IMG/VR virus record: IMGVR_UViG_3300047409_000574 | Location: 62,001 to 126,000 of that record | Reading direction: 5' to 3' (one strand) | DNA: 64,000 nt | DNA from: a virus | In this document: in pieces, positions 20,148 to 59,896 of the stretch | How the letters are laid out: the number at the start of each line of letters is the position of its first letter | Numbering within the stretch: position 1 is the stretch's first letter | Notes under the pieces: model-generated | What the model saw: the letters and a program-made list of their open reading frames with translations, nothing else | What the model was told of the DNA's origin: nothing | The model's database searches: none | Made by a program: the position numbers and the translations under genes

Positions 20148-20206
20148 TTTGCTACACTGAGGGCGACCCGCCAGACCAGCGGGAAGTGTGTAGACCACGG
20201 AGGTAG
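20148..20206 (+). promoter_or_regulatory. Promoter-hairpin-RBS cassette, copy A
   Basis: Short-spacing form: TTTGCTACACTG (20148-20159) is an extended -10. The leader has stem CCCGC (20167-20171) / GCGGG (20179-20183) with loop CAGACCA, then GTGTGTAGACC (20186-20196) and ribosome-binding site GGAGGTAG (20199-20206). Drives the gene at 20210. Confidence 0.8.
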
Positions 20207-24314: not shown

Positions 24315-24384
24315 GTTTGCTAGGACGTGCTACACTGAGGCCAGCCCGCAGACCACGGGCGTGTGTAGTCAACTGAGAGAGGTA
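24315..24384 (+). promoter_or_regulatory. Promoter-hairpin-RBS cassette, copy B
   Basis: Long-spacing form: GTTTGC, TAGGACGTGC, TACACT (-10 at 24331-24336, TG at 24328-24329). Leader stem GCCCG (24344-24348) / CGGGC (24356-24360), loop CAGACCA; GTGTGTAGTC follows directly (24361-24370) and then AGAGAGGTAG (24376-24385). Drives the gene at 24389. Confidence 0.8.
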
Positions 24385-24876: not shown

Positions 24877-25087
24877 TCTGGAGATCACACGTGACCGCAC
24901 CGGCGAGTTCATGGTCGTCCAGGTCGAGGGCGTCACTGACGCCGGTGTCGAGTTCGTGGACGGCTACTGCCCCGTAGGGGTGGAGTTCCAGGTGATCGAC
25001 AGCGGCCGGATCATCGTCCCGGAGCAGACGGCCGAGGCGATCCAGATTCTTGCGCGCGAGCGCGGTCTCACAACGGAGGTGGTCTAG
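24869..25087 (+). CDS. Small protein, unknown function
   Basis: 72 residues from ATG 24869, overlapping the previous gene by eight bases. Beta-rich ('GEFMVVQVEGVTDAGVEFV') with a C-terminal helix. The stop is directly followed by the homing-endonuclease gene. Confidence 0.72.
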   Translation: MADLEITRDRTGEFMVVQVEGVTDAGVEFVDGYCPVGVEFQVIDSGRIIVPEQTAEAIQILARERGLTTEVV

Positions 25088-26053
25088 GTGGCGATCGAGC
25101 AGCGCAAACGCACGAAGTGCGGGGGGTGTGGTCGGCGTAGGTTCGTGACACGAATGGACACTGGCGTGCTGTGCGATGGGTGTCGGCCGGATCAACTCTG
25201 GCGGGGCGTTACACCCGAGCAGCGATTCTGGGCAAACGTAAAGAAGCTCGAAGGTGTTGACGCGTGCTGGCTTTGGACACGAGGTAGTGACGCGCACGGC
25301 TTCGGCGTTCTGACGTTTGAGGGCAGACAAGAGGCTGTTCACCGCGTGTCGTGGCGACTTCACTTCGGCCCGATTCCCAAAGGAATGTGCGTGCTGCGTC
25401 GCTGCGAGCAGGCGCTCTGCGTCCGGCCGGATCATCTTTGGCTTGGTACGCGGCGCGACAAAGTGAACGACAAAACGAAGCGGGATCGCGTTAGGCGGAT
25501 CGCGGCTGCGCCTGTCGGCATGGTCATTACCAAGAAGCCCAAGATGACAGACCTGGAGATTGCGTGGACGGCTGGGCTGTTCGAGGGCGAAGGATCGCTA
25601 ATCGTTGTAGCGAAGCTCGATCCCTCCAGGCCATCGACCCAACTCTCATTGACGAGTACGGATCGCGATGTGATTGTGCGCTTCGCCGAGACCGTCGGAG
25701 CGGGCCGCGTGTATGGGCCGTATCAACCAGGTGCGGGCAAGTACGATCACTGGAAGCAGCAATATCTCTGGCGCGGTCATGGCTGGGCGCTGCTTCGCCG
25801 CCTGCGCGCTGAGTGGGGGCCGTATCTTGGTCGGAGACGACTCGCGCGATTCGACGAGATCGCAGCGATGGAGCCGCCGCCCTACGTTCGGATCAATCGC
25901 CATCAGCGCAGGTTCACTGAGGACGATGTGCGCGACATGCGTTCGTCCTACGCGCGGGGCGAGACGCAGGTGGCAATCGGGAAGCGTTACGGGATCGCCC
26001 AGCCGCATGTCGGAGAGATTGTTCGTCTTGAAACCTACAAGGAGATCGCATGA
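25088..26053 (+). CDS. Composite homing endonuclease: HNH_3-like + LAGLIDADG + HTH
   Basis: 321 residues. Order: a zinc ribbon 'KCGGCGRRRF...LCDGC'; an HNH_3/NUMOD-like block ('CWLWTRGSDAHGFGVLTFEG', 'HRVSWRLHFGPIPKGMCVL', 'CVRPDHLWLGTRRDKVND'); a LAGLIDADG motif 'AWTAGLFEGEGSLIVV' near residue 160; and a C-terminal helix-turn-helix ('QVAIGKRYGIAQPHVGEIV'). In the HNH block the first catalytic His-type position reads 'VLRRCEQALC' instead of the usual LHxCDNPxC, so that nuclease may be inactive. Two endonuclease types plus a DNA-reading HTH suggest a selfish gene assembled from parts. It is inserted between small genes without its own promoter. Confidence 0.87.
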   Translation: MAIEQRKRTKCGGCGRRRFVTRMDTGVLCDGCRPDQLWRGVTPEQRFWANVKKLEGVDACWLWTRGSDAHGFGVLTFEGRQEAVHRVSWRLHFGPIPKGMCVLRRCEQALCVRPDHLWLGTRRDKVNDKTKRDRVRRIAAAPVGMVITKKPKMTDLEIAWTAGLFEGEGSLIVVAKLDPSRPSTQLSLTSTDRDVIVRFAETVGAGRVYGPYQPGAGKYDHWKQQYLWRGHGWALLRRLRAEWGPYLGRRRLARFDEIAAMEPPPYVRINRHQRRFTEDDVRDMRSSYARGETQVAIGKRYGIAQPHVGEIVRLETYKEIA

Positions 26054-26826
26054 GCGTTCAGACCAGAACGGACGCGAAGCGCGGATGTGGATTTCGCGTC
26101 AAAGGCGGCCTCTACATGGTCTCGGGGCAACTCTCGGAGCCGTGCCCGCTGCTCCCGGTCGAGACGAAGGTGTGTCCGACCTGCGGCGAGGGGATTCGTC
26201 CCGCGCGCGGGTTCACCTGGGTGGACGCGGCGAGCTTCATCCCGCCGGTCACGCACGGCACGGCGGAGCACGACGCGGTCTGTCCGCTCTCGCCTGATCC
26301 GACACCGCGCGCGATCGTGAAGCTCGACCATGTCGAGCCGATCCGTTTCCAGGTGGTCGGGGTGCCGGGAACCTTCGCGACTGCGGACGAGGCGGCCCAT
26401 GCGGCGGTCACCACTCCGCGTTCGCGGATGGGTGACCGGGTCGGCCTGATCTGGATTGGGGCGGTGCACTATCCGACCCCGCAGTCGTTCATGCGGGAGG
26501 CGGCGGAGATGGGTGTGTCGCGTCGGATCACGGCGGTGCCCCGCGACTTCGTGATCGGCGAGACCTGGATTCTGCTCGGGCATCGCCGGGCCGCGGAGCA
26601 CGCATGCTCGGACTGCGGCGATCTGCCGAAGGGCGACCCGGAGTGTCCGGTCTGCGACGGCTCCGGCTACGAGAGTGTGCCGGGGATCATCACGGCGTTC
26701 CGGCCGACGGCCGTGGAATATGTAACGACCGGCCTTGAATCAGAGGAGGAGATTGAAGCCCTCGAAAAGCGCGGCATTACTCCGGTCGAAGTGATCCTCG
26801 ACGAGACGCAGACCAGGCTTGTCTGA
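26050..26826 (+). CDS. Actinophage-type zinc-ribbon protein (RGCGFRxxGGLY family)
   Basis: 258 residues, ATG in an ATGA overlap. 'RGCGFRVKGGLYMVSG', 'KVCPTCGEGIRPARGFTW', 'GLIWIGAVHYPTPQSFMREA' and 'MGVSRRITAVPRDFVIGETW' follow a family I know from many phages, always annotated as hypothetical. A second zinc ribbon 'ACSDCGDLPKGDPECPVCDG' lies near residue 195. Probably a nucleic-acid- or protein-binding adaptor. Sits between two endonuclease genes. Confidence 0.83.
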   Translation: MSVQTRTDAKRGCGFRVKGGLYMVSGQLSEPCPLLPVETKVCPTCGEGIRPARGFTWVDAASFIPPVTHGTAEHDAVCPLSPDPTPRAIVKLDHVEPIRFQVVGVPGTFATADEAAHAAVTTPRSRMGDRVGLIWIGAVHYPTPQSFMREAAEMGVSRRITAVPRDFVIGETWILLGHRRAAEHACSDCGDLPKGDPECPVCDGSGYESVPGIITAFRPTAVEYVTTGLESEEEIEALEKRGITPVEVILDETQTRLV

Positions 26827-27566
26827 TGTTCGACAAGAAGGCGTACATGCGTGATTGGCGGGAGAAGAACAAGGAGCGCATCCGCGCCACACAGACGGCC
26901 TGGCGCAAGAATAACCCCGAGCGCGTGGCCGAGTATAGGCGTCGCGATCTGGAGCGAAACGCGGAGACCTATCGCCGCTATCGCGAGGAGCACGCGGAAG
27001 AACTGCGCGTACGTGCGCAGGCGAGATATGCGGCGAACGCCGATCGTCTACGCGCCGAGCGTCGCGCGTACTATCGTGAGCACAAGGACGCGAACCGGAT
27101 TGCGCACGCGCTGTACGTCGCGGAGAATCGCGAGTGCGTGCAGGCGTACATGCGGGCTTGGCGTGTGACCGAGATCGGCCTCTTGTCGATCAGGAAGTCG
27201 CACTCTCGTCGCTCCGCGCGTGTCAACGGAGCCGCTGGTAGCTGGACTGTGGAGCAGTTCTACGCGCGCTGTGAGTTCTACGGTTGGCGCTGCTATCTCT
27301 GCGGCGATCCGCTTACTCTTAGCTCGTTGGTTGTTGAGCATCGGATTCCGCTCTCACGCGGCGGAAGCAACTGGCCCGCGAATCTCGCACCATCGTGTCG
27401 GTCGTGCAACTCGCGCAAAGGGACGCTGACTGAGTTTGAATATCGCCTGCGACTGGTTGGCGTGGAGGTGACGCCGGGCGGTGGAACTGTTGAAGCGATC
27501 GACGTTCAGATCGCTCGGCTATGCAAGTTGCAAGACACGGCGATTCTTCTCGAAAGTCTGCGGTGA
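26826..27566 (+). CDS. HNH endonuclease with long basic coiled N-terminus
   Basis: 246 residues, ATG overlapping the upstream stop by one base. Residues about 1-110 are an Arg/Glu/Tyr repeat-like helix ('RATQTAWRKNNPERVAEYRR'). The nuclease follows with 'CYLCGDPLT', 'VVEHRIPLSRGGSNWPANL' and 'PSCRSCNSRKG', i.e. CxxC, EH, N and CxxC of a complete HNH_5-type site. Likely a free-standing homing endonuclease. Base composition is lower in GC than neighbours, consistent with separate arrival. Confidence 0.9.
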   Translation: MFDKKAYMRDWREKNKERIRATQTAWRKNNPERVAEYRRRDLERNAETYRRYREEHAEELRVRAQARYAANADRLRAERRAYYREHKDANRIAHALYVAENRECVQAYMRAWRVTEIGLLSIRKSHSRRSARVNGAAGSWTVEQFYARCEFYGWRCYLCGDPLTLSSLVVEHRIPLSRGGSNWPANLAPSCRSCNSRKGTLTEFEYRLRLVGVEVTPGGGTVEAIDVQIARLCKLQDTAILLESLR

Positions 27567-44586: not shown

Positions 44587-44655
44587 GTTTGCTAGGCCGT
44601 GCTACAGTGAGGGCGAACCCGGTAGACCGCCGGGTGTGTGTAGACCGGGAGGTAG
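44587..44655 (+). promoter_or_regulatory. Promoter-hairpin-RBS cassette, copy D
   Basis: Long-spacing form: GTTTGC, TAGGCCGTGC, TACAGT (-10 at 44603-44608). Stem ACCCGG (44617-44622) / CCGGGT (44630-44635), loop TAGACCG. GTGTGTAGACC at 44636-44646 and GGGAGGTAG as ribosome-binding site before ATG 44659. Confidence 0.8.
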
Positions 44656-55613: not shown

Positions 55614-55686
55614 GCAGAGTTTCCTTCGAGGTGCTACACTTCGGGCGAGGGGATCGACCATCCCCCGTGTGTAGACCAGGAGGTAG
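55614..55686 (+). promoter_or_regulatory. Promoter-hairpin-RBS cassette, copy E
   Basis: Long-spacing form with a diverged upstream part (GTTTCCTTCGAGGTGC) and -10 TACACT (55635-55640). Stem GGGGAT (55649-55654) / ATCCCC (55660-55665), loop CGACC. GTGTGTAGACC at 55667-55677, then AGGAGGTAG (55678-55686) before ATG 55690. Confidence 0.8.
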
Positions 55687-56096: not shown

Positions 56097-56496
56097 GCAG
56101 GTCAAGCGGGTGTCGGCTGCGCTGCGTGCGGTTGGCTTCAAGCGTGGGGAGTTCTCGTGCCGGGCGGAGCGCAAGCACAAGCGCGATCGGAGCAACGGCG
56201 GTCGGCGCTACATCGAGTTCGGCCCGGCGTGCGCAACGTTCCACTACAACAGCCGCGACCCCGAGCGGACGTTGGAGCACCGGGCGCTGGCGGCGGCCCC
56301 GGCGCTGGTCGAGTTGGGCATGGTTGTCCAGGTGTTCACGAGGGGCGGCGTGCTGGAGTTCGTGACGGTGCGCGAGCCGGACTACCGCGAGACACCGACG
56401 GTGTACGAGCGCGACCTGGCGCTCCCGTGGGACGACCCCGAAGCCACCAAAGTTTGCTACACTGAGGGCGAGAGGCAGACCACCTCTCGTGTGTAG
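56086..56496 (+). CDS. Protein of unknown function; its 3' end contains cassette F
   Basis: 136 residues from GTG 56086. 'CRAERKHKRDRSNGGRRYIE' is very basic, followed by beta-rich 'CATFHYNSRDPERTLEHRAL'. The last 15 codons coincide with the promoter and hairpin of cassette F, and its TAG stop (56494-56496) is the TAG of GTGTGTAGACC. Not recognised. Confidence 0.75.
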   Translation: MVTEQVKRVSAALRAVGFKRGEFSCRAERKHKRDRSNGGRRYIEFGPACATFHYNSRDPERTLEHRALAAAPALVELGMVVQVFTRGGVLEFVTVREPDYRETPTVYERDLALPWDDPEATKVCYTEGERQTTSRV

Positions 56497-59826: not shown

Positions 59827-59896
59827 AGAGTTTGCTAGGTCGTGCTACACTGGGAGCACCGGTAGACCGCCGGAGTGTGTAGACCCAGGAGGTAGG
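59827..59896 (+). promoter_or_regulatory. Promoter-hairpin-RBS cassette, copy G
   Basis: Long-spacing form: GTTTGC, TAGGTCGTGC, TACACT (-10 at 59846-59851), preceded by GAGAGCCATCA exactly as in copy A. Stem CCGG (59859-59862) / CCGG (59870-59873), loop TAGACCG. GTGTGTAGACC at 59875-59885, AGGAGGTAG (59888-59896) before ATG 59899. Confidence 0.8.

Follow-up and report, generated by a model that had tools for sequence, protein, structure and literature searches.

The gene at positions 25088-26053 (+) of the window, by which we mean the whole 64,000-nucleotide stretch analysed here from a 126,255-base virus record (IMG/VR IMGVR_UViG_3300047409_000574), is one uninterrupted frame of 321 amino acids with a GTG start. 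The GTG comes directly after the stop of the preceding gene, and the 3′ end overlaps the next ATG at 26050. An initial annotation had read its product as a three-part protein combining HNH_3, LAGLIDADG and helix-turn-helix (HTH) domains. Domain searches matched all three in one frame, although the count falls short by one, since a zinc-ribbon-like stretch at the N-terminus makes four. The features of the locus are:

25088..26053 (+): whole gene, homing-endonuclease-like, with zinc ribbon, apparently dead HNH, LAGLIDADG and HTH (single open frame; GC3)
25075..25079 (+): GGAGG, ribosome-binding-like, 8 nt before the GTG (sequence)
25118..25183 (+): CxxC...CxxC zinc-ribbon-like segment, residues about 11-32 (read from sequence)
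25211..25495 (+): HNH_3 / I-PpoI-like His-Me domain, apparently catalytically degenerate, residues 42-136 (Pfam HNH_3, phrog_1872, AF2 model)
25397..25399 (+): codon of R104, replacing the general-base His, equivalent to I-PpoI His98 (alignment, including to I-PpoI)
25460..25462 (+): codon of K125, replacing the metal-binding Asn, equivalent to I-PpoI Asn119 (alignment)
25544..25873 (+): single-motif LAGLIDADG domain, residues 153-262 (phrog_5046, 1.8e-13; profile; AF2 fold)
25574..25594 (+): LAGLIDADG motif GLFEGEG, residues 163-169, with catalytic acid E168 (alignment)
25907..26047 (+): C-terminal HTH, residues 274-320 (phrog_6156, 1.2e-6; HTH profile, 68 bits)
26826..27566 (+): separate HNH gene, a neighbour outside the fusion (PF01844, 4.4e-10; PF14279, 1.2e-09; GC3 0.71)
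20151-20193, 24329-24368, 44601-44643, 55633-55674, 56456-56496 and 59844-59882 (+): six copies of a leader element, GCTACACT...GACC...GTGTGTAG

No Rfam intron was found in the window, and the fusion gene is thus free-standing: an intact reading frame outside any intron or intein, with its own start codon and a ribosome-binding-like site. Its GC3 is 0.69, against 0.82-0.90 in most neighbours, and the values by part are 0.71, 0.65, 0.67 and 0.65. All parts fall in the same low range (0.65-0.71) and look like one resident unit; such evenness, at a level below most neighbours, speaks for a single mobile unit rather than a recent misjoin.

Two genes downstream lies the second HNH gene that the initial annotation had pointed out, and it does appear intact. 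Between the two homing-type genes, a gene at 26050-26826 encodes 258 amino acids, with start and stop codons overlapping. It had no match in phages or viral contigs, and resembles an island enclosed by a homing endonuclease on each side. A search for an empty allele or target site of the fusion gene found none, the flanking genes being without usable relatives. Upstream, the gene at 23294-24304 matches phrog_6247 (1.7e-36), a PHROG family named DNA topoisomerase; its product is about 25-29% identical to proteins of varied phages and has no Pfam match. The same virus also carries separate relatives of both halves of the fusion, namely three HNH genes and one LAGLIDADG gene. At the 3′ end of this stand-alone LAGLIDADG frame, 39 bp (L006:1843-1881) are 92% identical to part of a terminase-like gene about 12 kb away (L003:846-884). 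The stretch common to the two may represent a fragment of a homing target that was copied.

The copy of the leader element at 24329 heads the stretch leading to the homing gene. Most copies stand directly before a Shine-Dalgarno-like sequence and a start codon. The outer stem, CUACAC/GUGUAG, is invariant, while four pairs of the inner stem are changed on both sides; 0 copies would be expected by chance. The 126-kb record contains no exact copy beyond these six, and Rfam gave no match. The element may be a structured leader or promoter-operator common to several phage operons.

The HNH part is a genuine member of its family. It matches phrog_1872 (2.9e-24) and Pfam HNH_3 (3.2e-10, 39.9 bits against a cut-off of 24.8), and 51 of 54 family members match PF05551, the Pfam zinc-loop family of I-PpoI. 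In the profile alignment, I-PpoI residues 98, 100, 105, 110 and 119 pair with H, C, C, H and N of the family, at E values (0.26-0.38) that are weak alone. Modelled by AF2 separately from the LAGLIDADG half, the domain (pLDDT 87.5) has I-PpoI as its nearest structure, at a modest Z (6.5; 4.0 Å over 97 residues), followed by I-HmuI (Z 5.6) and then by SMAD-MH1 and NFI domains (Z about 5). Nearly all structural matches listed are His-Me nucleases or DNA-binding domains of His-Me fold. A NUMOD reading of the block was rejected, as HNH_3 stood well above its cut-off and the Pfam scan gave no NUMOD match at E up to 10. The initial annotation had named two ways in which its reading could fail, an ordinary NUMOD domain and a frameshift joining two genes; the block proved to be a true His-Me/HNH_3 domain, and the frame is open throughout, with no frameshift.

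The loss of a key His from this block (VLRRCEQALC), also proposed in the initial annotation, was borne out by an alignment of 131 unique related HNH domains from IMG/VR, phages, plasmids and genomes. The general-base column holds His in 127 of the 131 and Arg104 in the fusion. A further loss had been missed: the metal-ligand column holds Asn in 123/131, and K125 of the fusion is its sole Lys. In contrast, the zinc ligands C60, C106, C111 and H116 are kept, each being present in 131/131 domains. Twelve positions are conserved in 93% or more of the domains, and the fusion differs at three of them (Y72F, H104R and N125K), two of which are exactly the catalytic ones. His98 of I-PpoI activates water and its conserved Asn binds the metal; the H98A mutant is strongly impaired, with weak residual activity that depends partly on His78 (PMC11325842). 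Together, the loss of general base and metal ligand from a retained zinc scaffold suggests that the HNH part is catalytically dead. H85, which aligns with His78, the weak back-up base of I-PpoI, is retained, and trace HNH activity may therefore persist even though both main catalytic residues are gone.

Loss of this His is rare elsewhere in the family. Only four of 126 HNH-bearing proteins have a His-less HNH domain: the fusion, L236 (three HNH domains), L254 (two) and L269, a short isolated remnant. In the first three the dead copy is always N-terminal. The N-terminal tandem HNH of L236 (1450-2544) and L254 (1405-2187) has Trp or Gln in place of His, with the zinc ligands kept. His loss thus occurs in 3/5 proteins that have a second nuclease domain and in 1/121 others (Fisher p 1.2e-4, a small post hoc comparison that ignores the relatedness of the proteins). 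Such clustering beside a second nuclease fits a relaxed need for one active site.

The LAGLIDADG part looks intact by its motif and predicted fold. As the initial annotation had held, its motif, GLFEGEG, carries a proper acid; indeed, both acids of the motif are kept, and both are invariant in 68 aligned relatives. The domain by itself has no Pfam match, and the family profile detects the solved enzymes I-HjeMI (2.3e-11) and I-AniI (1.2e-10). The AF2 model (pLDDT 91.8) has the expected alpha-beta-beta-alpha-beta-beta-alpha secondary structure and matches I-MsoI (Z 13.0, 1.9 Å over 103 residues), then I-CvuI and I-CreI; it also matches WhiA (8dy9, Z 10.9). With a single motif, the protein is expected to act as a homodimer. 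Members of the family are isolated homing-type genes, located in phage tRNA clusters and in a capsid-gene intron. The PHROG of the family, phrog_5046, is labelled HNH endonuclease, yet every one of the 68 LAGLIDADG relatives aligned matches it, and the fold modelled is that of LAGLIDADG. The label is likely wrong and may be carried over into phage annotations; Coruscant gp170 and a gene of Myxococcus phage Mx1, for instance, are annotated HNH.

Both ends of the protein have parallels in other genes. Zinc-ribbon-like stretches also precede HNH in two other loci (L190 and L218). In the fusion this CxxC...CxxC segment has no Pfam match, and AF2 models residues 1-40 with lower confidence (pLDDT 62-76 per 10-residue block). 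The C-terminal HTH is of the type seen in phage HNH-HTH and LAGLIDADG-HTH genes, and its best matches from HNH-type and LAGLIDADG-type genes are near equal.

Relatives lacking one part or the other are plentiful, HNH-HTH and LAGLIDADG(-HTH) genes each being common in phages as separate genes, and LAGLIDADG-HTH genes being notable in the tRNA clusters of Streptomyces and Mycobacterium phages. Their union in one protein, which the initial annotation rightly called uncommon, is far rarer. The fusion was the sole frame with both HNH and LAGLIDADG among about 190 LAGLIDADG and about 130 HNH frames in the best 80 loci per scan, some loci being counted more than once. One scan ranked 293 LAGLIDADG-motif viral loci by their similarity to the full-length fusion, so that a recognisable second fusion should have come top among its best 80. 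None was found in phages and plasmids, nor in protein searches of 1,349 prokaryote genomes (a few genomes searched twice). With 80 loci per scan and a reach set by the motif patterns, these counts speak for rarity and are not proof of uniqueness. In the literature, covered mostly through openly accessible papers, we found no described natural HNH-LAGLIDADG fusion. Among the matches listed, the closest LAGLIDADG-HTH gene is L157, 39% identical over residues 134-320. Several candidates for a second fusion were rejected. Myxococcus phage Mx9 p93 (L007:1735-2835; OQ709411.1) covers 86% of the query, but consists of HNH plus four HTHs. Matches spanning both parts in a Klebsiella phage and a Variovorax plasmid are HNH proteins without LAGLIDADG. 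The architecture of Mx9 p93, an intact-motif HNH followed by four tandem HTH repeats, is itself an unusual multiplication. The fusion of an apparently dead HNH with LAGLIDADG is thus represented by a single example in the data searched.

We propose that the gene encodes a free-standing homing endonuclease in which LAGLIDADG cuts and a dead HNH is kept as a zinc-stabilised DNA-binding part, a reading that we consider probable, if by no means assured. An I-PpoI-like HNH module would have been joined to a LAGLIDADG-HTH endonuclease. Two copies of the product would pair via the single LAGLIDADG helix, as in I-CreI, and E168 would cut a roughly symmetric target. Having lost its general base (H to R104) and its metal ligand (N to K125), the HNH part would no longer cut; its zinc-held fold may contact DNA beside the zinc ribbon and HTH and thereby extend or refine target recognition. 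A break made in a relative without the gene would be repaired from a genome in which it is present, and the gene would thereby be copied. We propose the HNH remnant as a DNA-binding module in view of SMAD MH1, termed 'a degraded homing endonuclease' by Grishin (2001, as cited in PMC4999995), who thus described a fold likewise kept while its catalysis was lost. R104 and K125 could be an aid to DNA binding or mere decay. Indeed, with one example, and no relative showing selection on the dead module, drift is a possible explanation of the losses.

Homing genes are known to decay after fixation, and the whole gene may itself be decaying: drift would have removed the HNH catalytic residues, the HNH remnant would be idle, and its join to LAGLIDADG would be incidental. 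That the fusion is known from one copy, that such post-fixation decay is a known fate and that the isolated remnant L269 attests to simple decay all accord with this. However, all 321 codons are open; the four zinc ligands and the LAGLIDADG acids are intact, as are most other conserved positions of the HNH; and the changes at the 12 most conserved positions fall, in two of three cases, exactly on catalytic residues. We regard decay as unlikely, though not negligible. Less credible still is a DNA-binding regulator in which both nuclease modules only bind, in the manner of WhiA for the LAGLIDADG fold and SMAD MH1 for the His-Me fold. The structural matches to WhiA, SMAD-MH1 and NFI are what such a protein would give, but E168, the catalytic acid, is present as in every relative, and a family of homing-type genes isolated in tRNA clusters and a capsid-gene intron is not what a regulator would suggest; we hold this to be improbable.

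It is also very improbable that both modules are active, the HNH nicking with H85 as its base alongside double-strand cutting by LAGLIDADG. The retention of H85, and the weak, partly His78-dependent activity left in I-PpoI H98A (PMC11325842), lend this some plausibility, yet the metal-ligand Asn is lost too, and Lys at that position should disfavour metal binding. As for an artefact, whether frameshift, misassembly or a NUMOD block misread as HNH, the data searched hold but one sequence of the fusion; nevertheless the homology of all parts lies in one frame, GC3 is uniform through the join, and HNH_3 scores well above its cut-off with no NUMOD match. This explanation is largely refuted already, and we give it hardly any credence.

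Returning to the favoured reading of a LAGLIDADG endonuclease with a DNA-binding HNH remnant, we tentatively extend it, with rather less than even confidence, to a retired nuclease reused for DNA recognition while a nuclease of unrelated fold cuts: a snapshot of engine replacement in a selfish gene, and a parallel from bacterial viruses to the origin of SMAD MH1. The initial annotation had raised such a replacement of one catalytic engine by another; what stands of it is the end state alone, an HNH that appears degenerate and a LAGLIDADG that appears, by its motif, intact. The prevailing view is that phage homing endonucleases evolve mainly by exchanging the DNA-binding modules around a nuclease core. 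In this fusion, the nuclease itself seems to have been turned into a binding module. If true, the gene represents a testable intermediate both for a change of catalytic type in homing enzymes and for the passage from dead nucleases to DNA-binding domains such as MH1. It would also provide a natural zinc-ribbon/HNH/meganuclease/HTH architecture that can be dissected for target specificity.

Each half of the fusion has close counterparts among known systems. The phage HNH_3-HTH free-standing endonucleases (PHROGs 1872, 826, 3593 and 59; for example, Mx9 p93) are mostly 35-49% identical in their HNH and share the HTH type and zinc ligands, with paralogues (L003 and L004) in the same virus; unlike the fusion, they have both catalytic residues, His and Asn, and no LAGLIDADG domain. 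The phage single-motif LAGLIDADG(-HTH) endonucleases (phrog_5046; Streptomyces phage Sollertia gp128 and L157) share the GLFEGEG-type motif and the order of LAGLIDADG then HTH, but have no HNH in front. I-PpoI, a His-Cys box homing endonuclease, is the closest fold to the HNH part, and its H-x-C-x4-C-x4-H zinc motif aligns residue by residue, yet it has His98 and Asn119 where the fusion has Arg and Lys, and is without LAGLIDADG. The homodimeric I-CreI, I-MsoI and I-CvuI have one LAGLIDADG motif and the same fold (1.9-2.5 Å), to which the fusion, whose acid is Glu, adds the zinc ribbon, the HNH remnant and the HTH. Finally, the SMAD MH1 and NFI domains resemble the HNH part in that a His-Me-like fold is used to bind DNA, but they belong to eukaryotic transcription factors and, unlike the fusion, have no second nuclease domain.
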